From contig CM026561.1 in assembly GCA_015143295.1 (NCBI GenBank), positions 40,056,875 through 40,120,874 on the forward strand: DNA of 64,000 nt. The letters run 5' to 3'. How positions within the stretch are numbered: position 1 is the stretch's first letter; each line of letters starts with the position of its first letter. The notes beneath the pieces are model-generated. The model saw only the letters and a list, made by a program, of their open reading frames with translations. It was not told the DNA's origin and did no database searches. The translations under genes and the position numbers were made by a program. This document shows, piece after piece, positions 8,125 through 63,349 of the stretch. This DNA comes from Tetracentron sinense (lineage: Eukaryota; Streptophyta; Magnoliopsida; Trochodendrales; Trochodendraceae).

Positions 8125-9415
8125 TGAAATTACCCTGATCAATGATCTCTATGACCTAGAGGGGGGGGGGTGAATAGGTCTATCTAAGAATTTCTAACCA
8201 ATTTTAAAATTTTTAGTTATTTGTTTAGAAATCAATAAGTGATTCACACAAACAATCCACACAAATCTAACACATCAGATTTTTACATGGAAAAACCTTC
8301 CGGGAAAAACTACGGGACCTTGTTCAGCAACAAACTTCACTACAAGAAGAATTCAAGTACAAGACAAGACCTTACCCAAACCGGACACGACGTTCATAGG
8401 TACAGACTCTTACTCTTGATTTCCATGAACTAGCAGGTTCGATCTCCGCTGTAGCAGTTTTGGTTCCACACCGACCATATCTTCTCAAGCTACTTCAATA
8501 CCACGATCTCTCACGATCGATCTCCTTTTGAGAAGGCTCCAGATCATACACCAGACACACACACAAGGTGTAGGGTTGTGAATCAATTTAGAAAGCTTCA
8601 AACCCTAGAGGGATCTCATACAGATCTGAGATCACACAATGCAAGATCAAAGGAATAGATCTATACTTGTATTCTCTAGGATGATTGAAAGAGGAGGGAT
8701 CAATAAAGATCAAAAGATAAGAATGGATAAAACCCTAGATAGGTTTCTTAGACCTCTACTCTTTCAAAAATAGACCATGGATCCGAATTAGGTCTCCAAA
8801 AGTTGTTTATATAGGGTTTAGAAAAGAGTCTAGAAAATTAAAAAATCCTGTTTATAGGGACCGATCGATCGGTGCTCATAACCAATCACTCGATCTAAAA
8901 GGGATCGATCGGTCTTCACACCGAGAGATCGGTTAAAAATAACCTCTCTGGAAAAATACCCATACAGAATTTTAGACCAGTCGATAGCCACCGATCGATC
9001 GGTACATATGACCGAGCGAGCGGTCCAAAAACAACTCTCTGGAATTTTAGCCCATACAAAAATTATCACCAGTCGATAGCCACCGATCTCTCGGTAGGCC
9101 ACCGAGCGATCGGTCTCAACACCGAGAGATCGGTGGAGATAGAATTTTGGCTAAAACTTTTTAAACTTAATTTTTGTTTGATTCAATTAAGACCAATATT
9201 CATTGTTAGGCTTAAAACTATCATCCTAGGTATGTTTAGGGTTATCTAAGTCAAATCCAACCTAGGTAAGGGTCTCTAAGTCCATTACCTGTTTAGATCC
9301 AGAGTAAAAGCTTTTTCTTCAGTTTCTTCACTCTTCTTGAAGCTTTAGCTCTTATGATAAGTTGAACAAGACTCAACACACATGACCTATCAAATGATCA
9401 CGGAATTTTCCAACA
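8125..9415 (-). mobile_element. Sirevirus 5' LTR (1291 bp)
   Basis: In element orientation the LTR begins TGTTGGAAAATTCC at 9415 and ends GGTAATTTCA at 8125, next to the PBS. It contains a block of GATCGATC-type palindromes (8866-9135), a TATATAAA box at 8806-8813, and a C-tract followed by TCTAGG near 8157-8170, a motif shared with the solo LTRs at 54704-54737 and 63307-63349. Only one copy of this LTR is in the window, so its age cannot be judged from LTR divergence. Confidence 0.85.
8866..9135 (-). repeat. Palindromic block in Sirevirus LTR (GATCGATC core)
   Basis: About eight near-identical self-complementary motifs such as ACCGATCGATCGGT, ACCGAGCGATCGGT and ACCGAGAGATCGGT, spaced 15-45 bp apart. 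They lie 50-330 bp upstream of the TATA box (8806-8813) in transcription direction. Variants often alter both halves of a motif or keep it nearly palindromic. Confidence 0.85.
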
Positions 9416-9433
9416 CCGAAGTAGGGATTTATA

Positions 9434-9596
9434 ATTGGTATCAGAGCAGGTTCACCTTTAAGACTAAGCCCTTGAGTGTGATCCTGTATACTCTATGATC
9501 ATGAGTAGTCTTAGAGATGGTATCAGAGCAGGTTCACCTTGAAGACTAAACCCTTGAGTGTAATCCTGTATACTCTGTGATCATGAGTACTCTTAG
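9434..9596 (+). repeat. Two tandem plus-strand copies of a Sirevirus PBS and leader
   Basis: Each about 81-bp unit (9434-9514 and 9515-9596) starts with TGGTATCAGAGCAGG and ends with AGTCTTAGAG or ACTCTTAGA. Both match the element leader at 8043-8122 but point the opposite way. Only 18 bp separate the first unit from the LTR edge at 9415. The second unit joins the 3' end of the minus-strand gypsy at 9597. No plus-strand LTR precedes them. Confidence 0.85.
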
Positions 9597-9599
9597 ACT

Positions 9600-10740: not shown

Positions 10741-10774
10741 ATATAGCTCCATTCCCATTCGTAGAGAAATTCTT

Positions 10775-15848: not shown

Positions 15849-16679
15849 ATATACTTGAAAAGTTCTTAAAAACTTCAACATATTCATATAATTTTCAATT
15901 TATACCTTAGTGCTTGCATACATAGGCTACACAATCCATTTATATAAATAAACATGCTTTTCATTTCACTTTTTCATATTTAAAGCATATTAATGTAAAA
16001 TAGTGGAGGGTATACAGTCATGGAAGATCATACATATCTACATCGTCCAAACCAAACCTTTAATCATAACTATATTAACTAGTAGGGGGTGCATCTACCA
16101 TTTTTATCAAAAAATATACATAGAATCCCACTTTTTTCAATATTTGTATCATAGCAAAGCTAGGTAGTATGAAGGTACCTTGCAAGGATTGAATCCCTTT
16201 AGTATAGAGCTTGAGAAAGGAGAAGGTTGACTCTCCGCGATCCAATGCTTTAGAACACCTTGGAAGGGATATCCAAGCTTGAGAAATGGAAATCCAAGCT
16301 CCAATCTTGATCACACAAGCAATCCCCTTTGAAAGCCTAGCTTTTCCTCCATTTTCTCTCCAAAACTCTCCCTTAGGTTTGTGAACCCTAAAATCCAAGA
16401 AATAGGTTGGTCTTTATAGGCCAAGGGTTTAAAACCCTAATCTCCTCTTAAAATTTGCAAAAAGGGGAAAAACCCCAAATCATAAAAGGGCGGTCGACAA
16501 GCTGGGAGGGACGGTTGACCGACCAAGGATAAAACTCTACTGTTGCCCCATTTTGAGCAATTTAGGGACAGTCGGTCGACCGGCCAGAGGGGGCGGTCGA
16601 CTGGCCTCTGAATCATTACACACTATGGCCCATTTTGGGCCACTTTCGAGACAATCGATCAATCGACCACCTGTAGACT
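15849..16679 (-). mobile_element. Gypsy LTR fragment (minus), U3/R part
   Basis: Its layout matches other minus-strand gypsy LTRs in this window: a TATA-like CTATAAAG on the minus strand at 16412-16419 and, upstream of it in transcription direction, a GGTCGACC-type palindrome block at 16491-16668. Left edge abuts the Tat-like LTR and right edge the LTR at 16680. It may be the displaced 5' LTR of the gypsy at 9597-13990, but no PBS links them. Confidence 0.5.
16491..16668 (-). repeat. Palindromic block in gypsy LTR (GGTCGACC core)
   Basis: Motifs such as GGTCGACC, CAGTCGGTCGACCGGCC, GGTCGACTGGCC and ATCGATCAATCGA occur at short spacing, about 70-260 bp upstream of the TATA-like box at 16412-16419 in transcription direction. 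Confidence 0.75.
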
Positions 16680-18743: not shown

Positions 18744-18912
18744 GGAGCGGTTGACCGGTCCAAAAGACCCTCTCTGGAAAAATCCCCCATACAAACTTAG
18801 TGTAATAGCGGTTGACCGGTGGGTAGAGCAGTCGACCGGTAAGCGAGCGGTCGATCGGTCCTAATAGAAGTCGAGCGGTAGGCTATCGGTCCTGGGAGCG
18901 GTCGACCGGTTG
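18744..18912 (-). repeat. Palindromic block in gypsy LTR (GGTCGACCGGT)
   Basis: Six or more motifs such as CGGTTGACCGGT, AGTCGACCGGT, CGGTCGATCGGT and CGGTCGACCGGT, upstream of the TATA box at 18647-18654 in transcription direction. Confidence 0.82.
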
Positions 18913-20654: not shown

Positions 20655-20715
20655 GCGATTGATCGCTGGCGTCGAGCAATCGATGGCCTCTGGTGGGCGA
20701 TCGATCGGCGGCGCC
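20655..20715 (-). repeat. Short palindromic block (GCGATCGATC core)
   Basis: CCGAGCGATTGATCGCTGG, GTCGAGCAATCGATGG and GGGCGATCGATCGGCGG follow each other, about 70-140 bp upstream of the TATA-like box at 20575-20583 (minus). Confidence 0.7.
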
Positions 20716-24006: not shown

Positions 24007-25266
24007 TTAGTAGACACTGGGAGGTGGGGGTGACTTGTAGTAGTAGGGTGGAGGAGGAGAAGATGATGGGGGTGGAGGTGACTTGTAATAATAAGGAGGA
24101 GGTGGTGATGGAGATGGTGGAGGTGGAGACTTGTAGTAATAAGGAGGAGGTGGTGATGGAGATGGTGGAGGAGGTGATTTATAGATATAGGGAGGTGGCG
24201 GTGAAGGAGATGGTGGAGGTGGTGATTTATATACATAAGGAGGTGGTGGGGACGGAGATGGTGGAGGTGGTGATTTATAGACATAGGGTGGTGGTGGCGA
24301 TGGAGATGGTGGAGGAGGAGATTTGTAGACATAGGGAGGTGGTGGCGAGGGAGATGGCGGAGGTGGTGATTTGTAAACATAGGGAGGTGGCGGTGACGGA
24401 GATGGTGGAGGTGGTGACTTATAGATATACGGAGGTGGTGGTGAAGGAGATGGTGGAGGTGGTGACTTATAGAAATAGGGGGGTGGTGGCGATGGGGATG
24501 GTGGAGGAGGAGATTTGTAGACATAGGGGGGTGGTGGCGAGGGAGATGGCGGAGGTGGTGATTTGTAAACATAGGGAGGTGGTGGTGAGGGAGATGGCGG
24601 AGGTGGTGATTTGTAGATATAGGGAGGTGGTGGTGAGGGAGATGGCGGAGGTGGTGATTTGTAGACATAGGGTGGTGGTGGGGGTGGGGATGGAGATGGC
24701 GGAGGTGGTGATTTGTAGACATAGGGAGGTGGTGGCGATGGAGATGTCGGAGGAGGTGATTTATAGATAGAGGGAGGTGGTGGGGATGGTGATGGTGGAG
24801 GTGGTGACTTGTAGTGGTAAGGTGGAGGAGGAGATGGTGATGGCGGCGGTGGTGACTTATAGTAGTAGGGTGGTGGTGGGGATGGTGATGGTGGAGGTGG
24901 TGACTTGTAGTGGTAAGGTGGAGGAGGAGATGATGATGGCGGTGGTGGTGACTTATAATAATTTGAAGGAGGAGGTGATGGTGATGGTGATGGTGGAGGT
25001 GGTGATTTGTAGTGGTAAGAAGGAGGTGGTGATGGGGATGGTGGAGGAGGAGGAGGAGACTTGTAGTAATATGGTCGAGGAGGTGATGGGGATGGTGGTG
25101 GTGGGGACTTATAGTAGTATGGTGGCGGAGGGGACGGTGATGGCGGCTGCGGTGGTGGCGAAGAGTAAACATAATGGTTATCAGCAACTACATTTGTGGC
25201 TATCAGGCAAAACGCCAGAGCATAAACTAGGCGAGGCCATTGCCACGCCTTCTTCGAATTCATCAT
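24007..25266 (-). CDS. Classical extensin (hydroxyproline-rich cell-wall glycoprotein)
   Basis: Uninterrupted 419-residue ORF on the minus strand, one exon. Residues 1 to about 29 form a secretion signal with a hydrophobic core (LVYALAFCLIATNVVA). After a short DNHYVYSSPPP entry the mature protein is about 23 repeats of (Y/S)-X-Y-K-S-P-P-P-P-S-P-S-P-P-P-P, ending KSPPPPSVY. Family knowledge: Ser-Pro3-5 blocks are hydroxylated and arabinosylated, while YXY motifs (YYYK, YVYK, YIYK, YHYK, YFYK) form di-isodityrosine cross-links that insolubilise the protein in the wall. X is Tyr or His near the ends and mostly Val/Ile in the middle, suggesting repeat expansion from a central unit. The start is chosen because it precedes the signal peptide and lies about 95 bp from a TATA box. 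It is the only intact gene in the window. The number of repeats may be collapsed or expanded in assembly. Confidence 0.96.
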   Translation of the reverse strand: MMNSKKAWQWPRLVYALAFCLIATNVVADNHYVYSSPPPQPPSPSPPPPYYYKSPPPPSPSPPRPYYYKSPPPPPPSPSPPPSYHYKSPPPPSPSPSPPPSNYYKSPPPPSSSPPPPYHYKSPPPPSPSPPPPYYYKSPPPPSPSPPPPYHYKSPPPPSPSPPPPSIYKSPPPTSPSPPPPYVYKSPPPPSPSPPPPPPYVYKSPPPPSPSPPPPYIYKSPPPPSPSPPPPYVYKSPPPPSPSPPPPYVYKSPPPPSPSPPPPYFYKSPPPPSPSPPPPYIYKSPPPPSPSPPPPYVYKSPPPPSPSPPPPYVYKSPPPPSPSPPPPYVYKSPPPPSPSPPPPYVYKSPPPPSPSPPPPYIYKSPPPPSPSPPPPYYYKSPPPPSPSPPPPYYYKSPPPPSSSPPPPYYYKSPPPPSVY

Positions 25267-25360
25267 TTCAGGCGACTTGACCGATCTCCGGTGGCGACTA
25301 AATTTTCTGTATAGCTATTGATATGAGACTTGGATATATGGTAGGAATGGGGGATTGACC

Positions 25361-26518: not shown

Positions 26519-26701
26519 TGTTAAGACAGCTATTAGATGAATACTAATTCCGTAATTAATAATTATTATAATTAGTAGTTTTCTTTATTGTACTTACTTG
26601 CTTGTAAAGGTTGCTTGCTCTACACTCTTGTATACTTGTATAAATATACATGTCATAGAGAAGAATAAAATATCAAAGCATTACCACCCTAAACTTTATC
26701 T
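26519..26701 (+). repeat. Ale-like 5' LTR (183 bp)
   Basis: Starts TGTTAAGACAGCTATTAG and ends CTAAACTTTATCT next to the PBS. It matches the 3' LTR at 31122-31304 with few differences and has a TATAAATA-like signal (at about 26639-26646). Confidence 0.92.
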
Positions 26702-26713
26702 TGGTGTCAAAGC
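26702..26713 (+). promoter_or_regulatory. Ale-like PBS
   Basis: TGGTGTCAAAGC, a two-mismatch form of the tRNA-Met primer site TGGTATCAGAGC, directly after the LTR. Confidence 0.85.
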
Positions 26714-26769
26714 AGGTTGTTGCCCTTTATTATTGACATTGAAGTCCAACAGTTTCTTTTTATCAACTA

Positions 26770-28380: not shown

Positions 28381-28399
28381 TTCCTACCAATTAGTATGA

Positions 28400-29340: not shown

Positions 29341-29609
29341 CACGTAGCAGAGATCCCCTGTCAAGCTGTACCATTTAACCAATTTCCTTTTGAAGCCTGA
29401 AGCTGAATACACTCCTGAGCCCTAGGTGAGTTCTGAATCCCACATAAAATTGCTACCTGATCGAGTCACTAGAGGAATACCTAAAGTAACCTATGAACCT
29501 GTTCTTAGTTCCAAAACTAAGTATCTCTTGAGTAACTTTGTATCTTAGTATAGACTGTCAAGGGAAGGTGAATCAATTATCTACTGTATCTATTCCTAGT
29601 AGTGTGTAG

Positions 29610-35785: not shown

Positions 35786-35942
35786 CCGATCGACCGCACT
35801 CACCACCGGTTGATCGCTTGCCTACCGGTCAACCGCTCTACCCACTGGTCGACCGCTCTCACACTAAAATATGTATAAGAGAATTTTCCAGTGAGGGGTC
35901 TTTGGACCGGTCGACCGCTCCTCATGACCGGTCGACTGCTCC
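35786..35942 (+). repeat. Palindromic block in 5' LTR (GGTCGACC core)
   Basis: About seven motifs, including CCGATCGACC, ACCGGTTGATCG, TACCGGTCAACCG, ACTGGTCGACC and GACCGGTCGACC. It lies 75-230 bp upstream of the TATA-like box. The partner LTR (41168-41275) keeps only about three. Confidence 0.85.
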
Positions 35943-39460: not shown

Positions 39461-40528
39461 ATGAGATGTGGCAATCGGGGTCGCGGTTACCCTACTCGGG
39501 GAAACGGAGGTGATGCTCTGGTAGGCAATGAGCAACCTGACATTACACAAGTATTAGGGTCGATAGCTAAGACCTTAGCTATGCTCACAGCCAAGCAACC
39601 TGCCACTCCTAATCCTATTGCAGCACTAGTGCCGGCTCATCCAAACAGAGCATAGGAAGGGATAGAGGCATTTCGGAGGATGAGACCTCCAGTATTCTAT
39701 GGTGGCACAGACCCATTAGTTGCAGAAGCATGGGTCAGGCAGCTGGAGAAGTTGTTCTCCGTCTTGATGCATGCGGAGGTAGAGAAAGTTGCATGGGCCA
39801 CCTTTATGATGAAAGGTGAGGCCGATCACTGGTGGAGATCCGCCATCAGAACGAGGGACTTGACTCGTGTAGATCAAGAATGGACTTGGGAAGAGTTTTT
39901 TGATGTTTTCTACAAGAAATACTTCCTGGTGGGAGTTAGAGAAAAGAAAGAACTACTATTCATTACCTTGGAGTAGGGGAACAAGACAGTGGCAGAGTAC
40001 GAAGCCAAGTTCTCCGAATTGTCAAGGTTTGTCCCATATCTAATAGCCATGGAGGCAATGAAGGCCAGGAAATTTGAGAGGGGATTGCGGGCCTACATAA
40101 AAGATAGGGTTTCCATGTTTAGGCATGAGACCTACGCCAAAGTTGAGGATAAGGCCGAATTGGCTGAAACGAATTTTGAGGAATTCCACAAGAGGAGAGA
40201 AATGTTGAGAGGCCAGTCCAGTGGCTCCATTCAGCCCAGGAAGAGGGTCAAGAATGCCCCGTACGAGACCTCCGAGTCTGCACCAATTTAGAGGACTCCT
40301 TTTGCATCACAAGTCCCTAGCTCCACTACGACTCAGACTACCCAATTCTTGCAGCCCTTATCTTTTGCGTCAGGAAGTGATCACTGTGGTCACTGTGGAA
40401 GAAAGCATATTGGGGATTGTCGGAAGCTCAAAGGTGGATGTTTCCATTGTGGTGATCAAGGCCACTTGATCAAAGGTTGTCCTCACCGTCCGCCTCCAGC
40501 CCAACCTCAGGGAAGCAAGCCTCAGTAG
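39461..40528 (+). pseudogene. Gypsy Gag, nearly intact, three TAG stops
   Basis: Begins ATG (MRCGNRGRGYPTRG). The capsid core runs from MRPPVFYGGTDPLVAEAW through ATFMMKGEADHWW, FFDVFYKKYFL, TVAEYEAKFSELSRF and ERGLRAYIKDRV. A basic linker (RKRVKNAP) and two zinc modules, CGHCGRKHIGDC and CFHCGDQGHLIKGC, follow at about 40380-40485. The frame is continuous for about 355 codons apart from TAG codons at about 39653, 39974 and 40289. At the second and third, relatives or context favour Gln, so CAG to TAG changes are likely. This Gag would package the element RNA. It is the sole protein of the element. Confidence 0.9.
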
Positions 40529-41167: not shown

Positions 41168-41275
41168 TACCAGCCGGTCGACCGCTCTCACCACCGGTTG
41201 ACTGCTCTCGTACTAAAATATGTATGGGAGAATTTTCCAATGAGGGGTCTTTGGACCAGTTGACCGCTCCTCAAG
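41168..41275 (+). repeat. Palindromic block in 3' LTR, contracted
   Basis: About three motifs (GCCGGTCGACCG, CCACCGGTTGACTG, GACCAGTTGACCG) against about seven in the 5' LTR. Confidence 0.82.
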
Positions 41276-43434: not shown

Positions 43435-44191
43435 GTTAGGAATGGATAGGATACTCTAAAACCTCGAATAGGACCCCTATTTATAGTCTCATTGGTTAAA
43501 AACCCTAAAATCCGCAATTTGAATATTTTTTTTAAACTAAAATCGCGCACACCGATCGATCGGGAGTTCATTTCTGATCGATTGGACTCAACTGGGCTAC
43601 TTTCGGGTTCAGACTGATCGATCGGTCTGCCAGGGCCGATCGATCGGACCTTATAGTCAAAACTTGGCAATTTTCACTCGGAACCCGCTCTGGTAATTAG
43701 CCCGTAACTTGTGACTTGGTTGCTGGAATTGGATGATTCAACTTGAGTTGGACTCGCCATTCGAATGTGAACAATTTTATGGTTAATGGAAAAATCCTAA
43801 TTCTGAGTTTTTAATTACCTAAATGAGCTCTAAAGGTGAATGGTCTGGGATGGATTACAGCAGATCAGAATTTCAGTAGACCTGACTTCGAAAATCCAAC
43901 ATTTAACATAACATCGACTCAAAAGCTAGAAAAATGATAAACATGAACATTGAAGAGGGTTTTGATATATTTCTAATGGCTCAAGAATCACTCGATTCCA
44001 ATCCATGGTGAGACAACTAGAGCTTCCTAAAGTTGAGGGTATGTTAAGGCATCCCTCTTCTTTACAACTTTGATTATTCCTTGATCACATCACACCATTT
44101 AGATATAATTATATAAGCATTAAAACATCACAAAACCTATTATAATCATTTTACTTGCATTAAAGGTGTGAAAAAGATTCAGGTCTCTACA
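43435..44191 (-). repeat. 3' LTR of the LARD-like element, second part
   Basis: Resumes the LTR after the gag-only gypsy and matches 48300-49073. Holds TATAAATA on the minus strand (43479-43486) and a GATCGATCGG block (43553-43660). Ends GGTCTCTACA at 44191. Confidence 0.9.
43553..43660 (-). repeat. Palindromic block (GATCGATC core), 3' LTR copy
   Basis: CACCGATCGATCGGG, TCTGATCGATTGGA, GACTGATCGATCGGTC and GGCCGATCGATCGGACC, just upstream of the TATA box in transcription direction. The partner block is at 48412-48535. Confidence 0.85.
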
Positions 44192-48411: not shown

Positions 48412-48535
48412 CACCGATTGATCAAGGGTTCAGTTCCGATCGATCGGACTCAAATGGGCAACTTTTGGGTTCAGACCGATCGATCGGTCTGCCAGGGCCG
48501 ATCGATCGGTCTGCCAGGGCCGATCGATCAGGTCT
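48412..48535 (-). repeat. Palindromic block (GATCGATC core), 5' LTR copy
   Basis: Includes CCGATCGATCGGACTC, GACCGATCGATCGGTC and a duplicated unit TCTGCCAGGGCCGATCGATC that the partner LTR has only once. Confidence 0.86.
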
Positions 48536-50352: not shown

Positions 50353-51034
50353 TGATGAGTGTACAAAAGTACACTCCAAACTAATTATTATGTAACCCTT
50401 TATCACCCTTTCTAGTCTGAATCAATGATTTAAAGTCTATATTCTGAACTTGTTCTCCTATCTATAAATTATGAATTCTAAGTATTATGCAGGAATTCAA
50501 GTAAAGAACTTTCATGGAAATCAACAGATGGAGAAAAGTCAAAAAGGCGATGTTGATAAGAATGATAACTCAGACCATTCTCGGGATTGAAGAAGATAAA
50601 GTCTAAAGGCCCAAGACCCAAGTCTAAGAAACCAAAGCCCACAAGTTTATGTTAAAGTTCAAGGTCAAAACGCAAGACAAGTATAAAAAGATTCTCTCAC
50701 ACATGGGTGGAGAATCTTAGCAAGATATGGAAGGATGTGATTTTAGCATAAAAAGACTAGAACTCTCTTAAATTAGAAAGAGGAGATGTGCTCTAGAGAT
50801 GTTTCTATTTTAACGGAATGAGAAAATCTAAATCAAATAAAAGCGAAAATGAAAAACGTATAACTATGTATATCTCATGTCGTATGGACATCTCACCATT
50901 ACTCTGCACACGTTGGTACTAATCCCAATCTCCTCTCTTCTCTTATTATTGTTTTAGTTTTTTCTTTGTATGAATTGCTAATTACCTAGCCTTGGCCAGG
51001 GTGGAATTCTCTTAATGAGGTGATGTTAGTTTGA
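50353..51034 (+). repeat. Tat-like 5' LTR remnant
   Basis: Closely matches 58885-59560 (for example CTATCTATAAATTATGAATT and GGTGGAATTCTCTTAATG). Starts TGATGAGTGTACAAAAG; compared with the 3' LTR about 1.43 kb after TGATGAGT is missing. Cut at 51034 by the LINE tail. Confidence 0.85.
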
Positions 51035-51647
51035 TTTTTTTTTTGTAAAAGATAATCTCATTTAACAAGAGGGGAAAAGAACAGAGACCAAAGTACAGCC
51101 AAAAAACACTAAGAAACCCTCCTGCCCACACCAAAAATACCTGGATTAAAAGGAAGGGTGATACCCTGAGTCCGCACAACAAACTCTGGGTTGTGCGGAC
51201 TTCAAGGATTGGAAGAACTTCCATCATCAGAGGAGAGGAGTCGTCGTTTATGGTATTAACCATAATAAGGGAATCACTTTCCACAATAAAATGGGCCCAC
51301 CCTCGCTGTCTACCCAAGTCCAAGCTTTCCTTGATGGCCAAAGCTTCATTAACAAGAGGGGACGACGCTTGTATAGCCCTTGAGACCCGAGAAAGCACTG
51401 TAGCTCGGTGGTCTCGAACTATTATTCCAATCCTCGCTGCTCCATCTGAGTGACAGAATGCCCCATCACAATTCATCTTGAGAGAGCCCCTAACTAGGGC
51501 CTGCCATCAAAGGGAAGCAAACTCACTGGGCCGCTCACTATGACTAGCATCGGAAGGAGTATAAGAGACATGTTGAGAAGCAATCTCTCTTGACAACTTT
51601 GAAGCCCAATCTGTTGTTCTTCTGGGATCGGCTATGATAGAGGAAAA
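51035..51647 (-). pseudogene. LINE (L1-type), RNase H end and poly(A) tail
   Basis: Minus strand. Plant LINE C-terminal RNase H (RVT_3 type): NCDGAF with the first Asp, GIIVRDHRATVL, VNEALAIKESLDLG with Glu, and HFIVESDSL with Asp. It ends LLNEIIFYKKK, then a poly(A) tail (T run at 51035-51044). The upstream part is FSSIIADPRRTTDWASKL (51647-51590), with a stop near 51507. Together with 54738-55120 it forms one copy split by the solo LTR. The left flank is the Tat-like LTR. Confidence 0.88.
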
Positions 51648-52186
51648 TGTTAGCCTAAAATTTACAACCTTAGGTACCCTTAATAATTTTAATGATAACA
51701 CAATAATGAAATGATCATTGTGTTACTAATGTCTCTATTGAGTTCATGTAAAATCAGTGTACAAAGAGCATTAGCAAAACATCAAAGGCACAAAGCATGA
51801 AAATGGCATCAAGCATGAAAAAAATGCACAAAGCAAGTCATCCAATCAAGTTGAAGATCAAGCCAATCCAAAGCAAAAGTAACAAAAACTCATGTCATGA
51901 AGAAGAAGATTCACTAAGAAGCATTCTTTGTCATGAAGATGAAGTCGAAGAAGCCAATCAAAATCAAATTTGAAGTACATTAAAGACTCTCCAACAAGAA
52001 GATTCAAGGTTTATTTTTATTGTTCTAAGAGTTATCAGAACAAATGTAACAAGTCTTCAAAGTTTGATGGTTGAAAGCTCAAAAGCCTAGATTGACCATA
52101 GGAGCCTTAAGAGCATCATTACACATCTTTATAAGGTCCTTAGACATCATATGGAATGGTTAAAAACATGATAAAGTCATCATAAA

Positions 52187-52325
52187 CCAGTTGACTAGTT
52201 TTCAAAACCAGTTGACTAGTTTAAAAAATAGTCGACTAGTTCTCACTGGTGATAAAAACCAGTCGATTGATTTGGTCTAGAAGCTACTAGACTTGACAGG
52301 CTGAAAACCAGTCAACTGATTTTAT
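52187..52325 (+). repeat. Palindromic block (CAGTCGACTGG core)
   Basis: CCAGTTGACTAGTT (twice), TAGTCGACTAGTT, CCAGTCGATTGATT and CCAGTCAACTGATT, about 80-220 bp upstream of TATAAAT (52405-52411). The related solo LTR at 61929 uses a different core at the same place. Confidence 0.84.
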
Positions 52326-52916
52326 CGCGGAGTGCATTAATTAAAGCCTCTAATGGCTAGTTTTGTATTCAATGTTACTCCAACAACCATAAAACTTCTT
52401 GGGCTATAAATTGAGATGATTTATGAATTAAATCAAGAACTCTTATCACTCCTATCATTCTATTAATCAATTCAAATCATTCATTGATTCATCTATTGAG
52501 TAAACATTAGAAACCCAAAAAGAGTCATTATTGAGCTATTCAACTCCATTATTTGAGAGACTTTAGTGAGTTTTAAAGTGATCAACTAGCTCGTTTTGGG
52601 AGCAATTACACTTCTACAAAGTGTATTTGAATAAAGAATCCTTGGATTCTTGTCCTTAAAGTGGGAAGCTTCATTGTAAGGTTTGATCTTCACCCGGAAT
52701 AAAATTGTGGTAAGTCAAAAGAGGGGAATCTCTTGCAAGTGTAAGGTTTGATCTTCACCCGCAAGAAGATCGTGCGATTAGTGAATCATGTTGAATCCTA
52801 GAGTGGGAAGCTTGAAGCATGGACATAGGCGGGAAGGCTGAACCACGATGACATATCTTGTGTTTGCTCTCTTTCTCCTTATTGTAAGCACCCAATTTTT
52901 ACACCTCGAGACCCGT

Positions 52917-53820
52917 GGTTAAGCTTAACCATGGTTAAAATTTAAAAATCTAAAAACTGCCATAGTGTTGGTAATCACATTACCGACACCTATTATTTTA
53001 TGTGACAGTGACTTTGGCCCCATACCAGGCCCATACTTGGCATCCCATGTGGCCCACAGCTGGTCCAGGGCACTCCCCTCAGTCTGGGCTTTAATTTCGA
53101 GGGTCATGGACCCCCTAATTGCACTCCTAACCATAGTTACATGGGTACAAACCACGGTAAAAAAATCCATTATTGGCGGTAAAGCATTCACCGCCAATAT
53201 GGATTTGTGAAGAATCCTAATTGGCGGAAATGCATAACCGCCAATTCCAATTTTATGCTGTTTTGGGCTTTGCAGTAAGCCACGGCCCATGGGAGCCCTC
53301 CACTAGGCCTCACCTGACCCCTGGGGTCCATTTCCAGCATCTCCAGGCCCTATCTTGCCTTAACCCATAGTTAACTCAACCATGATTTAGCATTAACCAT
53401 GGTCAGTTGAACTAAACCCCTTGGAAAAATCTTAGCAAATTCTTTGAAATCCAAAATATTCCAAAACTTGGAAAAATATCACTTTTGGACTGTATGCTCT
53501 TGCCTAATCATGGTTAGATGAGCTTAACCATGGTTAACACTTGGTTTAACCATGGTTAAACTCATTTAAGCCTTGGTTAAAATTCTAAAAAATCATGGAA
53601 AATCTCAATGGCATTCTAAATCCAAATCCAACTTGATAGTATGTCCAACCATGATTATCCGGACTAATCATGGTTAAACCCATGTTTTAACCATGGTTAG
53701 TCCCACCAAACTTAGGAAATTGGGAAAAATCCTCAAAAATGTTTAAACAAATCTAAAGGATCATAAACATACCTTGGACCTTGCCCAACCCCGGTTAGCA
53801 ACCTTAACCACGCTTAAACC
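52917..53820 (+). repeat. Dispersed TTAACCATGGTTAA palindromes
   Basis: At least ten copies or variants (GCTTAACCATGGTTAA, TTTAACCATGGTTAAAC, CTAACCATGATTA and others) scattered through this half of the Ogre-like LTR. Confidence 0.85.
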
Positions 53821-53828
53821 CTTTTTGG

Positions 53829-54103
53829 TCTACCGGGCCTAACTCTAAGCCTACCAGGCTTACCCTTGGCCTACTGGGCTTACCTTTAGCCTACCGGGCC
53901 TAACTTTTAGCCTACCGGGCTTATCCTTGGCCTACTGGGCCAAATCCAAAGCCTACCAGGCTTACCCTAGGCCTATCGGGCCTATCTCTTAATCTACCGA
54001 ACTAAACCCTAGCTTTCGGGCTTACCCTCTTGGCCTACCGGGCCTAAATCTTGGCCTACCGGGCCTAATCTTGGCCTACCGGGCCCTTTTGGCCTTCCAA
54101 GCC
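53829..54103 (+). repeat. Tandem array of GGCCTACCGGGCC-type units
   Basis: About 14 units of roughly 20 bp. Variants CCTACCGGGCCTAA, CCTACCAGGCTTAC, CCTACTGGGCTTAC and CCTATCGGGCCTAT keep ends that can pair (AGCC..GGCT, GGCC..GGCC). Confidence 0.88.
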
Positions 54104-54737
54104 CAATCAAACATAACCAAGCACTTGACCAACCCGGTCAAACACCCCTAGCCTCCCAGCTAGACCCTAAGCCACCTTTGGTGCACACACAACACTCCCC
54201 TAGCCTTGGTACGGGCTCATGTGTCAGAACTGCGCTCGGTCTGATCTCACCCCAATGTGAGTACGTAGGCAACCCAACCCAAGTTCGACCCTAGTTTAGC
54301 TTTTTCCTTCTTGGATTAGTATAAAATAAACCTAAGACATTTGACTAAACATTGACATTAATTTGGCTTAAACCTAGTAAGTAGGGAACCGTTGTAAAAT
54401 GGAAGTGTCGGGGTGCCTAACACCTTCCTCGGGCTTAACCAAACCTCTTACCCAGAACTCTAAGCAAACCAAGACCTTATCCATTACCTGGGACTTATCC
54501 CTACCGAATTAATAAGTGGCGACTCTAAACATAAACATTACACCAAATGTGGGTAACCAGAATCCGTGCTCACACTTATCTTTATTTATTTATTGTTGCA
54601 TTGATTATATAATTGCTAGAATTATTTTTCCTTGTTATTAGATTAATTAAAATTTTGCAAAAGGGATTAGGAAGAAATTTTATTTTGCTAAGGCCCTATT
54701 CACCACCCCCCCTCTAGGGTTTAATACTTGGGCAACA

Positions 54738-55120
54738 GAGAAGACAAGTTCATTGCGGGCAAACCAAATGGCCCACAGGGATGAAGCTATCACACTCCCA
54801 TTTTATAGTTCTCCACACTAAACAAAGGTTGCATAGACCAATAAGACCACCGTTTTGAGAAATCCACCATGATATCTGAATCCCATTGCCAATGGAAAGA
54901 CAAAGGCAGCCAGGTTACTCTTGCAAACTGGCAATGGAGAAATAGATGGGATACTGATTCAAACTTGTCTCGGCAGAAAGGGCATAGAGAGTTAATTGGA
55001 ATCCGCTTCTTAAAAAGGTTTTCTCCATCAAAAGAAAGCACAATGTGAAAAAAAGCAGCTTTCCTCACAAAACAAGCAAGTGCTCTAATCCAACATAGAA
55101 CTCCTCTCAAGTATGAAGAC
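54738..55120 (-). pseudogene. LINE (L1-type), reverse-transcriptase zinc-binding domain
   Basis: Minus strand, upstream half of the LINE at 51035-51647. The zf-RVT domain has LFKKRIPINSLCPFC, ESVSHLFLHCQFARVTW, then SSLWAIWFARNELVFS at the LTR edge (another frame, one indel near 54790). This motif normally leads straight into the RNase H part now found beyond the solo LTR. The copy is 5'-truncated at about 55120, where it meets the gypsy protease. Confidence 0.87.
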
Positions 55121-55830
55121 CTCAGGTGCCCTGTAATTTCTTGTATTATTGGGGATCATGATTTTGAACAAGCTTTGCTTGATCTTGGTGTAAATGTTAA
55201 TTTAATGCCCTACTCGGTCTATTTACATCTTGGACTAGGAGAAATATAACCCACTACTGTGGTGTTACAATTTGCTGACTAATCTATAAGAAGACCGAGA
55301 GGGGTAGTAGAGGATGTGTTAGTCCAAATAGATAAATTTTATTATCCTGTTGATTTTATCATCTTAGACACACAATCTGTGGTGAATGCTAATTTTAAAA
55401 TCTCAAATATTCTTGGTATACCCTTCTGTGCTACATCTAATGCTTTAATTAATTACTTGAATGGTCTAATGAAATTATCTTTTGAAAATATGACCATAAA
55501 GGTAATATTTTAATATAGGCAAATAATTGCAAGGAGATGATGAGTGCGAGACTACAAATTGGATTTAAGCATTTATGCAAGAAGAGTTGAAATCACCAAA
55601 TTATTCTAACACTCTTGAAACTCTTTTTGTTAATTCTTAAATTGATATTAATTATTTTAATAAAAAATAGTTTTCTAAAATTTGTGCTTTATTTGGTACT
55701 TCACAGGTGACACGGACAAAAGGTTGGCAACCACAATTTGAGGAGTTGCGCAAGGAAAAACAAAAGTCCCTACCCTCCAGTGTTTAAGTTCCAATTTTAG
55801 AGCTTCAACAACTGCCTACTAGTGAAATGC
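55121..55830 (+). pseudogene. Tat/Athila-type gypsy protease fragment
   Basis: Plus-strand retropepsin: CPVISCIIGDHDFEQALLDL with the DLG form of the active site and NLMPYSVYLHLGLGE, RRPRGVVEDVLVQIDKF, DFIILDTQ and ILGIPFCATSNALI, typical of Tat/Athila elements. After it, WQPQFEELRKEKQ and PSSV.VPILELQ at about 55715-55810 match the Tat linker before RT, but RT never follows. Stops at about 55248, 55281 and 55511. Confidence 0.85.
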
Positions 55831-57440
55831 CTTTAAACTGGAACGCCCAAGATAAGAGAAATTTTTTTGTAGAGGTACGTAAGTTTTATTGGGATCCTAG
55901 CAAATTAAGGTCTACCGGGATTGACTCACCTTTGTGAGTCTCCGCATTATTGTATATTAGTTTTGTTTTGTTTCTATATAATCTTGCAGGTTCCCTCTAT
56001 TGGAAGTTCACTCAAATTCTCAGGTTCTATCTACCTCTTCTCTGTGTTCCTTTTAGCTTGTCTTTTATTTATGGAACATTAACGACAACGTCAGATTTAG
56101 GTTGGTGGTGATAGTAAAATATCTTTTCCATATCTTTTTGCATGAATTATGACTTTGCAGTCATCTATGTTATTCTTGTCATCTGTTATGAGCAAACCTC
56201 AAATTTTTTCTTATGCACGTAAGTCATAGTGGATGTTGGTTGTTAAAATACATGCTTTTAGGAAACATCTCAGATTTTTGCTAAGACTTATAACACCTAT
56301 GAGCTTTTGAGCCTTTCTCGTTTTTTGGAGCGATTTATTATTATTATCATTATTATTATTATAATAATTATTATTCGGTGTTTTTATTCAAACGACATTA
56401 TTCCTTAGTTAATCTCATTATTTTCTTGCCTTGATTATCCATTGGGAATGTCATTACACGGTTTGTGGTTTGTTTGGATGAATTACCTAAGAAAGGATAT
56501 ATGTCAATGTAGAAAGATTAAGCTTATCAAGCCAACCCTTATCATTACTTATAGGAGCCACTTTGAGCCTAAAAGAAAATTTTCTTATAAAAACCACTTT
56601 TTCTTACCCACTCCACATTGGAGTCTATTTTATACATTTCACTACCTTTTAAATTGAATTTTATGCTAGGGATGGTAGTTTTGTGGTATTTAAAATTCAA
56701 GTATATTGGAAATTCAAAAGGGATTACAAGTTCAGGTTATGGAAAATTCAGTTGGGGTAATGCTTATCATTCTTAAAATGAAACCAAAAAAAAAAGTGTT
56801 GAAAAAGCAGAAGTACAAGTTTGTTCTACATTGGAAAAAATCAAAAAGGAAAATAAAGAAGGAAGTTCTGAATTTAGAAAGAAAAAGGATATAGAGATAT
56901 GTTTAGAATTGTTGTTTCATAATGAAGATGTATTGAGATTCATAACATATACCTAGGGTTTTTTTTTTTTTTTATTATCCTTACCCCTTCTTTCTTATAA
57001 ATTTTAACCCTCTAGTCCCATTACAACCCTTATTGCTGACCTTTTGATCTTAGGTGGCTTGGTGGTGTGAAAGAAGGAGTTCCTAATGGATGACATTCTT
57101 TCCTTGAGATATTATTATTTGTTATAGCTCTTGCATTCTATTTTCCATAAATTTGAGAGAAGACCCATAAAATCTCTGAATACATTATTATGAGTGATTT
57201 AAAATATTTGTGAGATTTGAAGTCAAAGCTTTTATCTTGATGTCTCTGTTATTTATATGTGTTTTAGGTTTATTGGAAAGAATGGTTATGAGCTTAGCAC
57301 ACACACAAATTCTGAGTTCGTTTATCAATAGAGAAACTTGGATAACATAATGAACTTATTGTGAAACCTTTGAATGCTTTAGCCTATATTCATGAAGATC
57401 GATTGGTTAAGTGCTTTATTGATAGGGACTAGCAATATTC
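55831..57440 (+). other. Tat-like 3' internal noncoding region
   Basis: No domain recognised; RT, RNase H and integrase are absent. A Lys-rich 62-residue ORF at 56706-56894 has no recognisable motif and looks fortuitous. T-rich runs at about 56335-56375 and 56958-56975. Confidence 0.6.
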
Positions 57441-57453
57441 AAGTGGGGGGGTG
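57441..57453 (+). promoter_or_regulatory. Tat-like PPT
   Basis: AAGTGGGGGGGTG directly before TGATGAG at 57454. Confidence 0.85.
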
Positions 57454-60138
57454 TGATGAGTTATATTCGCTTAAAAGTGTTTATTTCCACTATTATCTTT
57501 TGAGGCGTTGTCAAACTCTACTACGTAAACTTTCAATTTTACAAACTTTTCTACGTAAGAGTTCCCTCCATTACATAACACACATTTCTGGTAAAAATGG
57601 TACATTTGCATGAATTTAACATATTTTTGAAAGTTTAGATTCAAAGTTATTTTTATAAACTCTCATTACGTGCTTTAATGTTTCAGGACTCTAGATTAGA
57701 AGAAATTCAGGAACCAGGAAGCCAAAAGCAACCACCAAAACCCCATTATTGAAAGCTAAAGATCCAACATGCTATATCATGTAGAGACGTGTCAAGCATG
57801 GGCTGAGCTAGTGACTGAAGAAGGCTAAAGAACCAAAGAATACATTTCCAAGAGAAAGGGACTCAATTGATAAATATTCCATACAAGATAAAGAAAGAAA
57901 CAAGCTCAATTGGCAAAGGCCGGGGGAGATCATGTTAGAGACTAGGGTTCAAGACCTTTTGCTTCTTTTTGTTTGTTTTTATTTTGTAATTTTAAAATCC
58001 TAACCAATTTCCTCTCTAATTAATCCTAGCCACTCATTCTTCTTCTATTATAACCATCTATTTCAAATCCATACTTTTCATCTCTCACATGGTAACTCTA
58101 ATCCCACAATATCTTCCCATATTTTCTTTCCCTCTTTAGCTCTCCCTAAATTCTCCATTGTGTTAAAAATCTAATCCATTTCTCTACAAAATCCTAACCA
58201 TCCATCTCTTCTCTATCACCAAACCTTAATCCTAGCCACCAATCTCTTTCTAAAAATCCTAACCCACTTTTCTAACCATAATCTTTATAAAACCCTAGTC
58301 ATCATCTATAAATACTCACCCCTCTCTTTCCATTATAGATGGTTCCCTCCCCCCTAATTTCTTTTCTCACATCTCATTTCTCAACCCCTTTTCTATCTAA
58401 GCCTCTCAATCTCTTCTTTTCTCAACTCCTTCTCAAAAACCTCCCTCGAAATACTTGCAACTATGCTTAGTGCGAGTTTTCGGTTTTCTGAATTTTTCTT
58501 ACGGATGTAAGCGAGTTTAATTCTAGTTGTAAGTGATTTCTTTATTTTAATGCAATGAATGTTATTTTTATTTAATGCTTTGATGTCTCTTCTTAATTCA
58601 GTTTATTTTATGTTCATTTCATTTTATTAATAGATCTTAATTACCTATCCCAAAATTGTTTTAAAAATTCCAAATAATCTCCACTCTCATCCCTCCATTG
58701 TTTTACAATTTATTCTTTTTTTTGGTTTCTTTCTTTATATTAATCCCAAAGTTCACGAGTGAGGATTCGACATCCGACACAAGCCCTATACATTCTCATA
58801 TGTTTGTAGGAATTTAAAGAATCAGATTAAAAGAAAAGTTTTGATAGTAGGGTGATTCTAAACGACGTAAAAATCTTACTATCAATGAATGTGAAAAAGT
58901 ACACTCTAAACTAGTTATTATGTAACTATTTATCACCCTTTCTAGTATGAATTAAAGATTTAAAGTCTATATTCTGAACTTGTTCTCGCATCTATAAATT
59001 ATGAATTCTAAGTATTTTTATATTATTTTATACAGAGAATTCAAGTAAAGAGCTTTCATGGAAATCAATAGATAGAAAAAAGTCAAAAAGATGATGTTGA
59101 TAAGAATTCTAACTTAGACCATTCTCAAGACTGAAGAAGATAAAGTTTAAAGGCCCAAGACCCAAGTCCAAGAAGCCAAAGCCCACAAGTTTATGTCAAA
59201 GCCCAAGACAAGTATAAAAATATTTTCTCACACAGGCGGAGAATCTTAGCAAGATATGGAAGAATGTGATTTTAGCACAAAAAGAATAAAACTCTCTTAA
59301 ATTAGAAATAGGAGATGTGCTCTAGAGATGTTTCTATTTTAATGGAAGGAGAAAATCTAAATCAAATAAGAGCGAAAAGGAAAGACGAATATAACTATAT
59401 ATATCTCATGTCATAAGAACGTCCCATCATCACTCTACACACGCTGGTGCTAATCCCAATCTCCTCTCTTCTCTTATTATTGTTTTCATTTTACTTCGTA
59501 TGGATTGATAAATCCCTAGCCTTAGCTAGGGTGGAATTCTCTTAATGATGTGATGTTAATTTGATTTAATCCATTGAATGTTTATGATTTCTATTTCTCT
59601 TGTTTATCTAGTTTGAATCTCTCTTTCAATTGAATCTCTTAGATTTAAATCTTTTCACGAGTTCAATCATACTTTTTTCATAGTTAAGTAATAATTCTTG
59701 ATTTCTCAAACGAAGAATTCTAATCTCAACAGATATTATCATTTGTTGCGATATTGCCTCTAGGTATATCGTCGACCTTGGATCTTTCTGGTGAAGTTAT
59801 TACTTGGGTTAAAACTTGGTTTGGATAGTTAAGTAGAAATTGATTTTAGGTTTTTATTAAAAATTGAATTTATAGATCTTCTGATTGAGGGTTTGGGATG
59901 TGAAATCCCCAATTGAGTTATACTTTGGATTTATCGAATTGATATTACACCATTAAGAGGAGGAAACCCGATGCCTTGGTGCTTTCTCTCATTGATATTC
60001 CCTCTAAATTAATTACAACTTTCTCTATCAAAAATCTACAATCTCTTTTTTTACAAGTGTTTCCTACCTTCACTTCTCCTTGTGGACCGACAACCCTTTA
60101 CGGTACTGTAAAGTACCGCATATCTTTGAGTGACATCA
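57454..60138 (+). repeat. Tat-like 3' LTR (about 2685 bp)
   Basis: TGATGAGTTATATTCGC (57454) after the PPT to GTGACATCA (60138). The part from about 58885 matches the 5' LTR remnant. CTATAAATACTC at about 58309-58320 is a possible TATA box. No coding sequence. An alternative is two different elements meeting at 58883; the single-LTR reading is favoured by the PPT, the matching ends and the target duplication. Confidence 0.68.
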
Positions 60139-60143
60139 GTGAA

Positions 60144-60181
60144 CTCTCTTAATATTCTCTATAGAGATTGAAATTCTCAGT
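60144..60181 (+). other. Short flank, possibly the last piece of the Angela-like LTR
   Basis: 38 bp between the Tat-like element and the Athila-like LTR. It continues the GTGAA target site. Too short to assign firmly. Confidence 0.3.
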
Positions 60182-61632
60182 TGTTGGATGATCGGTGCTA
60201 AATATTCCATATTTATGCACCTTAAAAGATACTTATTAATTCCTTAGAGTAAGTTTAGATACCGTTTAATGACACTTGGATGTTTCCATCTATTTCAGAA
60301 TCAAGTGAAGAAAAGACATTAAGTCTCAAGTTTTGTGCGCTTGGAAGGCTTAGAAGAACTTCAGCCATGGCAAAAACCAAAGAATGAAGATGAAGAAAGC
60401 ATAATCAAGAAAAAGCATACAGTCTGATCGATCACAAGCTAGGTCCAATCGATCACAAGTCAACAGATCGCATAAGAGGATCCAACCGATCAGATCGCAC
60501 TAGGGGAATTTTTGGAAAAGTTCTGATCAATTAGACTGTTCAGATCGATAGATCGCACAATTACAAAAAGTTCTGATTGATCGGAACTAACTCACTGATC
60601 GATCCGAGATCGGAATTTTTGACCTTGAGATCCATGCCTGGGAATTAGAAGTTGGACCCTAATTAGAAGTCCCTAAGTCTCTATATATAGGAAAACCTTG
60701 GGCTATTCCTGGGGTTCTTATTTTTAGGAGTGCTGAGACTAGAGTTTGAGAGAAAAGGAGGCTCTGCCAAAGATATGAAGGTTGGAGGATGAAGCTTTCA
60801 TCATTGGCATTGGGATCTTCGATGTTCTTCATGAACTAATTCCTTTTCTAGGGTTTAGATGAAACCCTAGCCAAGTATCAGTGTATCTTTGCATTTTATT
60901 TTAGGTTCTTATAATTGTAAACATTGATTGCACAATGAGAGGGTATTTTATCAACCATATTTAATAGATTTAATATCCAATCTCAGTGATTACCATCCTT
61001 GTCTTAGGTTTTATATCATTGTGATTGAGTTCATTCGTAGTGATTTTCTGTGATTGTCTCTATGGATTTTGTGCAATGGTATTTAATATTCAAGGGATTG
61101 AACAGTAGGATGATCTATGCTTAGGGAAGACGATTAGTTCCACAACTGAAGATAGATCATGACCGATCGATTGAACACAGACATCCAAGTTTTTAAAATT
61201 TTCCCGATCAATTGGTCATAACCTCCAATCGATCGGAACCTAGCGGGATCAATTATAATAGGCATGTGTACATCATTTTTTTCAAAATCTCCTCTTTTGT
61301 TCCCCACTCCTCTTTCAAACCCTCTCTTTCCCTCTAAATCCACTCTCTTTCCCATCTCATTCCTTCTCAAGATCGTGGTGTGTTCTTCGTAAGCAAGACC
61401 ATTTGGTATGTGATTTTGGGTTCGGAACCATTTTTGGAAGATTGGGCGAGTTTTGGGCCTAAATACGTGAAAGGAAAAGATTGTTGGTTAAGTTTGTGAT
61501 ATTTTTATTGGAGGGTGGATTGGTGGTTTGTGTTTGTGGATTGAGAGAGCAAAGTATTTGTTTTGGTTGAGAATTTCCTTAAGGCTACCCACCAAGTGTT
61601 TGACAATTTGCCTTAGTGATTTTTAAAGGAAA
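60182..61632 (+). mobile_element. Athila-like LTR and leader
   Basis: Begins TGTTGGATGATCGGTGCTAA, then a long noncoding region with a GATCGATC block (60425-60610), TATATATA at 60682-60689, further GATCGATCGG motifs (61155-61225), and ORF1 at 61633. The LTR end and PBS could not be located, so LTR and leader are given together. Confidence 0.6.
60425..60610 (+). repeat. Palindromic block (TGATCGATCA/CCGATCGG types)
   Basis: GTCTGATCGATCACAAG, CCAATCGATCACAAG, CAACCGATCAGATCG, GTTCTGATTGATCGG and CACTGATCGATCCG, about 75-260 bp upstream of TATATATA (60682-60689). Confidence 0.78.
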
Positions 61633-61928
61633 ATGGGCCGAATGAAGAACACAGCCAAGCACTCAAGGGTTATTCAAGATCAACCGGATGACAATTAGGA
61701 GGATAGGGACTTGGGCTACCAAACCATCTTCACTATTGACAACTATTTTCGGGATCTTGAGGACAGGGCCTGGACCGTGTGCGAGCTTGAGTGGCGACAA
61801 CTCCAAGGTCTTTTCAAACCCATAATTCTCGTGCACCCTTAGTTGGTTAGACTTTTCTACCAAACCTTGCACAAGCTCAATTCGCGACAACATGATTCTA
61901 TTTGGGTCACAATAGATGGGGCTTCCTA

Positions 61929-63349
61929 TGTTAGCCTTTAGGTTTTTGACCTAAGGTAACATATTTGATTTTGATGATAACACAATAATAGAATGACATT
62001 TGTATTACTAATGTTCTATTGAGTTTAAGTATAATTCAGCTTATGAAGAGCATTAGCACATCATCCAAGGTAAAAAGATGAAAATAACAACCAAGCAAGA
62101 AAGATTCTCTATCAAGATATAAGAAAACAATTAGATCAAGTTGAACACATTGAAGATCATGCCCAAAGTCCAAGACAGATCTTGATGCTAAAGAAGAAAT
62201 CTACTCAAGATCAAGATTAAAGATGAAGACTCTCAAGAAGGTTTTATAGTTTATTATTTAGTCTTTGAGAGTACTTAGGATTTATGTAAGAAATCTTCAA
62301 AGTTTGGCTGGTTGAATTGCTCAATACTTAGATTGACCGTAGGTGCCTTAATACCCATTTGAATATCAATCTAAGAACCTAAAACATGATAAATATCTTA
62401 TTAAAGATAAGGTATAAGACCAAGGAAATCATGTCCATCATATTGATTAAGCAAAGATGAGTTTTCTGTAGAAATATAGAGGACTCGTCGACGAGTGGGA
62501 TTGTGGTCTCAACACTCATCGACGAGTGAAGAAACAGTGTTGCGGATTGATTTTGGCAGCTTCACTCGTCGACGACTGGATCGTGCATTGGAGCACTCGT
62601 CGATGACTGCTTGCGGGAAACGCCCAACGGCTAGTTTTTAATGACTCTTTGAGTTCCCATGATGCCTCCAACGGCTATATCTTTGAAATGCTATAAATAT
62701 GATTAATTTATGAATGAAATTAAGAACTCCAATACTTCCATTCATTTAATCCATTACTCTAAAGCTTAGATTTCAAATATATTGAGTTATAACCTAGAAT
62801 CCCTAAATTCAAGTTCTTGAGCTTTTCAACTCCGATCTTTGGGAGATTTCTAGAGAGTGTTAAAGGCATTTATCAGCTCGTGTAAGGAGCATTATCTGAG
62901 TGCAAAAACTACTCTTGTCAAAGAAGTTGTAAAATCAAGACGTTCGTGAGAGTATTCTCCATGAAGCCGAAAGCTTTGTAAATGTTTGGTCACTACCCGA
63001 AAATTGAATTAAGTCTAGGGAAGATTGTTCCTTAGCAAGGTTTGATCTTCACCCAGAAGAAGATTGACGATTGGGAATAAATCGTGGTGAATCCTCTAAC
63101 GAGTATAGCTTGAGGCGGGGATGTAGAGAGGTTGCCGAACCTTGTGAACAACATCGTGTGTCATTGTGTTTGCATCTCTCTAACTCTTCTCTATATATAA
63201 TTGTTTTGATGGTAGAATTGCTAAATTGCTAATTCCTTTTAACTTATTTAGTTGAAATGTCGCTTAAGGAATTAGGAAGAATTTTAATTTGTCATAGACC
63301 CTATTCACCCCCCCCCCCCCCCCCTCTAGGGTCCAAACCTTGGGCAACA
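61929..63349 (+). mobile_element. Sirevirus-like solo LTR (1421 bp)
   Basis: TGTTAGCCTTTAGG (61929) to TTGGGCAACA (63349), perfect target duplication TCCTA (61924-61928 and 63350-63354). Same family as 51648-54737. Palindrome block at 62486-62610, TATAAATA at 62692-62699, poly(C) then CTCTAGGG at about 63307-63330. No internal sequence, PBS or PPT. Confidence 0.95.
62486..62610 (+). repeat. Palindromic block (CTCGTCGACGAG core)
   Basis: ACTCGTCGACGAGTGG, ACTCATCGACGAGTG, CACTCGTCGACGACTGG and CACTCGTCGATGACTG, 80-200 bp upstream of TATAAATA (62692-62699). Confidence 0.88.

Follow-up and report, generated by a model that had tools for sequence, protein, structure and literature searches.

TCGA-centred palindrome arrays upstream of the TATA box in copia and gypsy-type LTRs of Tetracentron sinense: candidate binding arrays for a dimeric host factor

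Two questions about plant long terminal repeat (LTR) retrotransposons are open: what activates them, and why unrelated ones thrive side by side in a single host. In the Sireviruses, a copia group, LTRs carry repeated motif (RM) boxes, multi-copy, palindromic and CpG-rich, in the upper half of the LTR and shortly upstream of the TATA box (Bousios et al. 2010, PMC2829016; here and below, statements on published work refer to the accessible portions of the papers). RM boxes were reported to be Sirevirus-specific, the comparison covering other copia elements only (PMC2829016). Palindromes of maize Sireviruses are clustered in the cis-regulatory part of the LTR and form small-RNA hotspots (PMC5311732, PMC10760457), with the maize palindrome, CACCGGACNNNGTCCGGTG, also found in Helitrons (PMC10760457). 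Here we describe a 64-kb stretch of the 1.16-Gb Tetracentron sinense genome (contig CM026561.1, positions 40,056,875 to 40,120,874; G+C 37.9%; 'the window' below), made up of nested LTR retrotransposons, in which arrays of TCGA-centred palindromes lie upstream of the TATA box in both Sirevirus and gypsy-type LTRs, with their centres mostly whole helical turns apart.

Palindrome arrays and the LTRs that carry them

A sequence-only reading of the window had listed eleven stretches with palindrome clusters, and these are borne out by two scans compared with shuffled sequence. A search for 14-mers with a TCGA core (at most one mismatch) and at least five of seven complementary pairs, three or more making a cluster, returned ten clusters, every one a listed block, against 0–2 in each of 20 shuffles. 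Other cores gave 10 clusters (CATG), 8–17 (A+T-rich cores) or none (the CpG-bearing ACGT, GCGC, CCGG and CGCG), shuffles having been made for the TCGA core alone. Perfect 8-letter palindromes centred on TCGA number 31 in the window versus 6 in one shuffle. A motif matrix, whose scan is partly circular as it was built from block sites, found twelve clusters against an average of 0.03 in 30 shuffles: the eleven listed blocks, now including that at 41168, and one that had been missed (61169–61231, within 61162..61238, strand unassigned), comprising three palindromes at spacings of 41 and 21 bp. Named below by their first coordinates, the blocks hold 42 of the window's 190 TCGA words within 1,625 bp, and their CpG observed/expected ratio is 1.20 versus 0.44 elsewhere in the window, block 52187, with decayed motifs, being the exception (0.43). 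Core sequences had been said to differ among families; the centres differ less than stated, TCGA occurring throughout, and it is the flanks that vary, mostly symmetrically.

Three blocks lie in Sirevirus LTRs. The largest (8866..9135, minus strand, ACCGATCGATCGGT type, 11 matrix sites) has a TATA box 53 bp downstream and belongs to the LTR 'SireA'. The element of this LTR spans about 8128 to at least 3849 (minus strand); downstream of the LTR it encodes gag and reverse transcriptase domains of copia type (Retrotran_gag_2, 3.9e-21; RVT_2, 3.4e-41), and it has the published Sirevirus LTR/primer junction, CA + ATTGG + TATCAGAGC, letter-perfect at about 8109–8128 on the minus strand. A decayed array (52187..52325, plus strand, ACCAGTCGACTGGT type, five sites) lies in 'SireB' (about 51648–54737), which is split by another solo LTR, and a third (62486..62610, plus strand, ACTCGTCGACGAGT type, four sites at spacings of 31, 50 and 31 bp) in the solo LTR 'SireC' (61929–63349, 5-bp target duplication TCCTA). 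All three LTRs carry the polyC Sirevirus end CTATTCACCCCCCCCC, at 8162–8177 (minus), 63301 (plus) and, with one mismatch, 54696 (plus), where shuffles average 0.03; the LTRs of 52187 and 62486 are homologous.

Seven further blocks belong to one gypsy-type LTR lineage. Self-comparison of the window revealed the nested LTR pairs of two elements, for which 'Tek' is a working name only: TekA (35476–43429, plus strand) is inserted in one LTR of TekB (about 49071 to 32312, minus strand), and each has, at the end of its LTR, a primer site for Met-tRNA. The TekA LTRs hold blocks 35786..35942 (plus, six sites) and 41168..41275 (plus, three sites, TATA region lost), and those of TekB blocks 43553..43660 and 48412..48535 (both minus, CCGATCGATCGG type, with four and five sites, respectively). 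Block 18744..18912 (minus, AGCGGTCGACCGGT type, six sites) lies in a gypsy-type LTR of the TekA group, and block 16491..16668 (minus, CGGTCGACCG type, four matrix sites) in an LTR homologous to TekB near the TATA box. With the palindromes masked and the remainder aligned, 18744, 35786, 41168 and 16491 join 48412 (z 11.6–22.7). Block 20655..20715 (strand unassigned), with three TCGA palindromes 21 bp apart, is tied to the lineage solely by a flank match to a gypsy-lineage locus of the random sample described below, L033 (73% over 98 bp), a weaker link.

The gypsy assignment comes from TekA gag pieces (39656..40525, plus strand), searched piecewise, with all matches below curated cut-offs: two adjacent pieces match PF03732 (Retrotrans_gag) at positions 3–44 and 59–96 of 97 with 21.6 and 20.4 bits (cut-off 24.1), and a zinc knuckle match is weak (15.5 bits, cut-off 20.8). 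A protein search with one gag piece returned no relative. In profile searches gag alone was found among TekA's coding domains, and gypsy RVT_1 copies lie elsewhere in the window.

The arrays had been placed in many unrelated LTRs. That description is too generous: seven of the eleven blocks fall in a single gypsy-type lineage and three in Sireviruses, so that the independent cases are fewer than eleven, namely one gypsy-type lineage and at least two sorts of Sirevirus, with 60425 (60425..60610, plus strand, TCTGATCGATCA type, seven matrix sites) and 61169 joined to neither. A regulatory architecture shared by copia and gypsy LTRs, as previously suggested, is supported; with most blocks belonging to two LTR groups, there is less call for several independent origins. 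A random sample of this genome (25 pieces of 10 kb) contains arrays of this kind as well. They are not universal, as the direct-repeat pairs 26520–31304 (182 bp, flanking a copia RVT_2 piece) and 50355–59567 (683 bp) have no TCGA matrix site.

Position relative to the TATA box was scored as the distance from the nearest motif centre to CTATAWA or CTATATM, in nine blocks directed by primer sites, polyC ends or LTR homology. A TATA box lies 53–98 bp downstream in eight of them, compared with 3.3% of random positions. The claim of a downstream TATA box in all but 41168 thus holds for these eight, and 41168, the ninth, is confirmed as TATA-less; 20655, with no TATA box on either side within 40–120 bp, is a second exception. 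Near 60425 a TATA box lies at 80 bp, downstream if the plus strand is read.

Two observations concern the Sirevirus LTRs themselves. Just past the 5' end of the SireA LTR, at 9433–9597, the Sirevirus primer site and leader (8041–8125) occur twice more, in tandem and in the opposite direction. The solo LTR within SireB (52883–54574, 5-bp target duplication CTTAT) holds an array of the CATG-centred TTAACCATGGTTAA, with 12 matches of at least 11/14 versus 4–10 per whole shuffled window; related CATG arrays occur in sampled loci L018, L019 and L036.

Dyad symmetry and spacing

Exact TCGA sites in the blocks, collected without demanding symmetry, have flanks that pair at ±3, ±4, ±5 and ±7 (p at most 0.0175), while among TCGA sites outside the blocks only ±4 is high (51/148, p=0.0095). 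In the window and the 250-kb random sample together, where repeated words were found without asking for symmetry and at least four of five flank pairs had to be symmetric, this was so for 20 of 44 TCGA arrays (10/15 in the window, 10/29 in the sample) versus 20 of 335 arrays for fifteen other core words.

Centre-to-centre spacings in the window are mostly 19–22, 31, 40–41, 49–50 and 61–62 bp. With one representative per lineage (41168 and 43553 dropped, and 18744 save its 31-bp spacing), the mean cosine at a period of 10.2 bp is 0.62 (n=40), and 0.48 for spacings above 23 bp (n=15, p=0.003); at 10.5 bp these longer spacings give 0.25 (p=0.09). The period of 10.2 bp, fixed from the window, was then applied to ten script-chosen arrays with an exact TCGA seed in the 25 random pieces, giving 0.71 (n=41, p below 5e-6), and 0.62 above 23 bp (n=15, p=0.0002). 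A wider hold-out with four hand-picked arrays (L014 1096, L019 1826, L022 and L032 4881) gave 0.74 (n=58), and 0.67 above 23 bp (n=26). No 10.2-bp rule was found in the 37 other-core arrays of the hold-out test (n=117, mean cosine 0.01), the controls in both versions including an L019 array centred on TAAA, nor in the CATG array of the solo LTR at 52883–54574 (0.08, n=12). Strong near 10.2 bp, the spacing rule weakens at 10.5 bp; with about 1 bp of tolerance in each step, the period is blurred.

Two further spacing observations stand apart. Sampled locus L015 has, at 7031–7182, an array of another palindromic unit, CGACGGGTCCGTCG, whose four steps each measure exactly 23 bp. A 14-bp spacing in genome matches (five places, one in the backwards control) was dropped, as it lay outside arrays in the four loci checked.

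Regular spacing would also arise if the arrays were minisatellites of about 21 bp grown by unequal exchange, the palindromic unit having been caught by chance and the spacing being unit length devoid of function. The commonest spacing, 19–22 bp, and the unequal copy numbers between LTRs of one element (TekA 6/3, TekB 4/5) are in keeping with such slippage, but spacings near 31, 40, 50, 61 and 71 bp recur across families and misfit a 21-bp unit (mean cosine −0.12 at period 21 for window spacings above 23 bp), arrays with other cores lack the 10.2-bp rule, and symmetry is far commoner in TCGA arrays than in others. We consider slippage an improbable source of the pattern.

A moderately probable reading, judged from sequence, is that the blocks are enhancer arrays for a dimeric host factor. 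Each block would function, within U3 of its LTR, as an enhancer-like array; a dimeric host DNA-binding protein would read a dyad of roughly 14 bp with TCGA at its centre, and several dimers, whole helical turns apart and hence on one face of the DNA, would bind cooperatively and raise transcription from the TATA box 53–98 bp downstream. Sireviruses and the gypsy-type lineage would share this design and be served by the same kind of paired host regulator. A cooperative dimeric factor fits best because several dyads lie on one helix face, close upstream of the TATA box, in elements that need a promoter.

The palindromes had also been attributed, as an alternative to dimeric factors, to hairpins or small-RNA sources. 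As the 3' end of the element RNA spans U3, neighbouring palindromes could pair into hairpins that feed small-RNA production, as has been proposed for maize Sireviruses, or serve the RNA itself, and so be kept as RNA structure. Predicted folding gives z below −2 in nine of the twelve folded stretches, and the maize Sirevirus palindromes are small-RNA hotspots (PMC5311732, PMC10760457). However, folding is no stronger, or hardly stronger, than in shuffles for 18744, 20655 and 16491 (z +0.7, −0.9 and −1.9), and whole-turn spacing and a place just upstream of the TATA box are features of DNA. In the TekA group, moreover, the outer pair has the identical mismatch in all six sites of 18744 and all six of 35786, a direct-repeat asymmetry that a dimer site tolerates and that selection for a hairpin would be expected to mend. 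Spacing and asymmetry thus favour the dimeric factor, and an origin of the arrays as RNA structure is unlikely, though the folding still speaks for it; roles as protein site and small-RNA source may both hold.

Besides the folding, several results weigh against enhancer arrays of a dimeric factor. Association with a TATA box is weaker among the arrays of the random sample (3/11 with the strict pattern, 8/13 with the loose pattern versus 24% at random), the ±6 flank pair is not symmetric overall in the blocks, and the window has spacings of 14, 28, 37, 56 and 57 bp that depart from the rule. At 10.5 bp the long hold-out spacings (above 23 bp) are not significant (0.18, p=0.17), and the hold-out comes from the same genome, with families overlapping those of the window (L036 near 8866, and several gypsy-lineage relatives). 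Poorly symmetric TCGA arrays have a weaker 10.2-bp signal (n=44, 0.33, p=0.001), so that the rule extends beyond clean dyads; these are perhaps decayed arrays, or the signal an effect of composition. Nor was protection of CpG after insertion seen in the blocks: the TekA pair kept 5/9 within the block and 26/47 outside, and the TekB pair 7/13 and 8/17 in its blocks and 28/60 in the rest of the LTR. Decay equal to that of the rest of the LTR is as expected if blocks matter only while the element is active.

Turnover of dyads and a shared box

Six random loci (L015, L019, L020, L022, L033 and L038) match an anchor sequence upstream of the TekA array over 81–120 bp, at 74–85% identity. The slot behind the anchor is occupied by CGGTCGACCG in TekA, CCGATCGATCGG in TekB, TACGATCGATCGTA in L015 and L022, TGCGATCGATCGCA in L020 and GCCGTTCGAATGGC in L038; L019 has TGCGATAAATCGCA, whose centre is not TCGA, and L033 two weak copies with a different centre, as judged by eye. 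Different dyads in one slot behind a recognisable anchor indicate that the dyad changes symmetrically across copies while its neighbourhood is kept; the flanking letters would turn over together across the copies within an LTR. The LTRs of one element differ by whole palindrome units of 20–22 bp (six versus three copies in TekA, four versus five in TekB), indicating that units come and go during or after insertion, and array copy number would accordingly shift by units of about 20–22 bp.

Such turnover could be read as escape, were the arrays recognised by a silencing factor of the host, and different dyads in one slot of homologous gypsy LTRs are what repression of this kind would produce. 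An escaping element would, however, lose its array, yet 3–11 copies are kept in each lineage seen; activation is the role we infer, and repression appears very improbable.

Sirevirus block 8866 and gypsy block 18744 have in common a 37-bp non-palindromic box in the same direction, with an alignment score of 23 against a mean of 10.1 (SD 1.3, maximum 14) in 100 shuffles. Two copies lie within 8866 (about 8918–8985 and 9010–9077) and one within 18744, between sites 18753 and 18814. The match is weaker in the other TekA blocks (41168, score 18, shuffle maximum 19; 35786, score 15, shuffle maximum 14). The box is found again in L036, which has a polyC end and is closely related to the 8866 LTR, and an alignable variant of it lies in L030, whose LTR weakly matches that of 8866 (58 bp, E 3e-4); among the window and the sampled loci, no match was found in TekB or other gypsy relatives. 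This distribution is most simply read as transfer from copia into the TekA line, with loss elsewhere possible. An exchange between copia and gypsy, as had been proposed, thus gains one line of evidence from 8866 and 18744, weaker with 41168 and 35786; at least this one part of an array would have moved between the two superfamilies, perhaps by template switching or recombination.

More broadly, and as a tentative proposal of which we are rather doubtful, copia and gypsy elements of one genome would share a promoter platform: TCGA dyads at whole helical turns, with flanks changing symmetrically and in concert in otherwise conserved LTRs, tracking diversifying dimeric host regulators, and with parts traded between elements. 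A rule of dyad and spacing phase, readable from sequence, would give a direct means of searching for the host factor and of asking whether copia and gypsy elements jointly depend on it, and the arrays are offered as a putative fast-changing system of symmetric binding sites for studies of conflict between host factors and transposons.

Elsewhere in the window, a long open frame on the minus strand (24010–25314), which contains 48-bp repeats and matches Extensin_2 weakly, is perhaps a host cell-wall protein gene. Viral contigs yielded no relatives for two reverse-transcriptase queries; nine viral contigs found with one pattern pair (G+C 53–69%) were taken as chance, the other pattern pair giving none.

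Relation to described retrotransposon palindromes

Blocks 8866, 52187 and 62486 are, like RM boxes, palindromic, multi-copy and upstream of TATA. RM boxes are defined by at least eight copies per element, and the three blocks have 11, 5 and 4 matrix sites, respectively, each counted in one LTR, with the internal parts of the last two elements absent. The CGG-CCG signature of RM boxes appears as CGG..CCG in the gypsy TekA group and 16491 and as CCG..CGG in 8866, with neither in 52187 and 62486; the tobacco Tnd-1 box is likewise without it (PMC2829016). The TekA-group word CGGTCGACCG is identical to the grape Sirevirus RM box, and the Tnd-1 box, ACAATCGATTGT, also has a TCGA centre, whereas other RM boxes in the accessible table have other centres and are often odd-length (PMC2829016). 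Restriction of such boxes to Sireviruses does not extend to this window, where the same kind of array stands in TekA, an element with a gypsy-type gag (below cut-offs), and the published view of the boxes as special to Sireviruses would be corrected.

Palindromes of maize Sireviruses were reportedly treated as small-RNA hotspots by Bousios et al. in 2016. In the accessible accounts the maize palindrome is a different word, found in one superfamily and discussed with emphasis on RNA structure, while the arrays here are centred on TCGA and span two superfamilies. Among classic copia elements, promoter boxes of the tobacco Tnt1 type number two or three, and we know of no TCGA dyad or spacing rule for them. 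The Tnt1 boxes are short, in tandem and in U3 upstream of the promoter, as in the arrays here (PMC2829016).

Palindrome arrays in gypsy LTRs, or helical spacing, were not described in the literature searched, which is weak evidence of absence as subscription papers were mostly beyond reach; neither is described in the accessible portions of PMC2829016, PMC5311732, PMC10760457, PMC6911290, PMC11963269, PMC12016029, PMC5738225 and PMC3414828. Helical spacing, use by gypsy elements and a shared non-palindromic box are features of the arrays of this genome that the accessible text of PMC2829016 does not describe for RM boxes. Sirevirus palindromes upstream of the TATA box are thus already known, having been published in 2010. 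What looks new is that gypsy elements use such arrays, that lineages of one genome have the TCGA centre in common, that the spacings follow a rule, that dyads turn over symmetrically within a slot that is conserved, and that the 37-bp box is shared.

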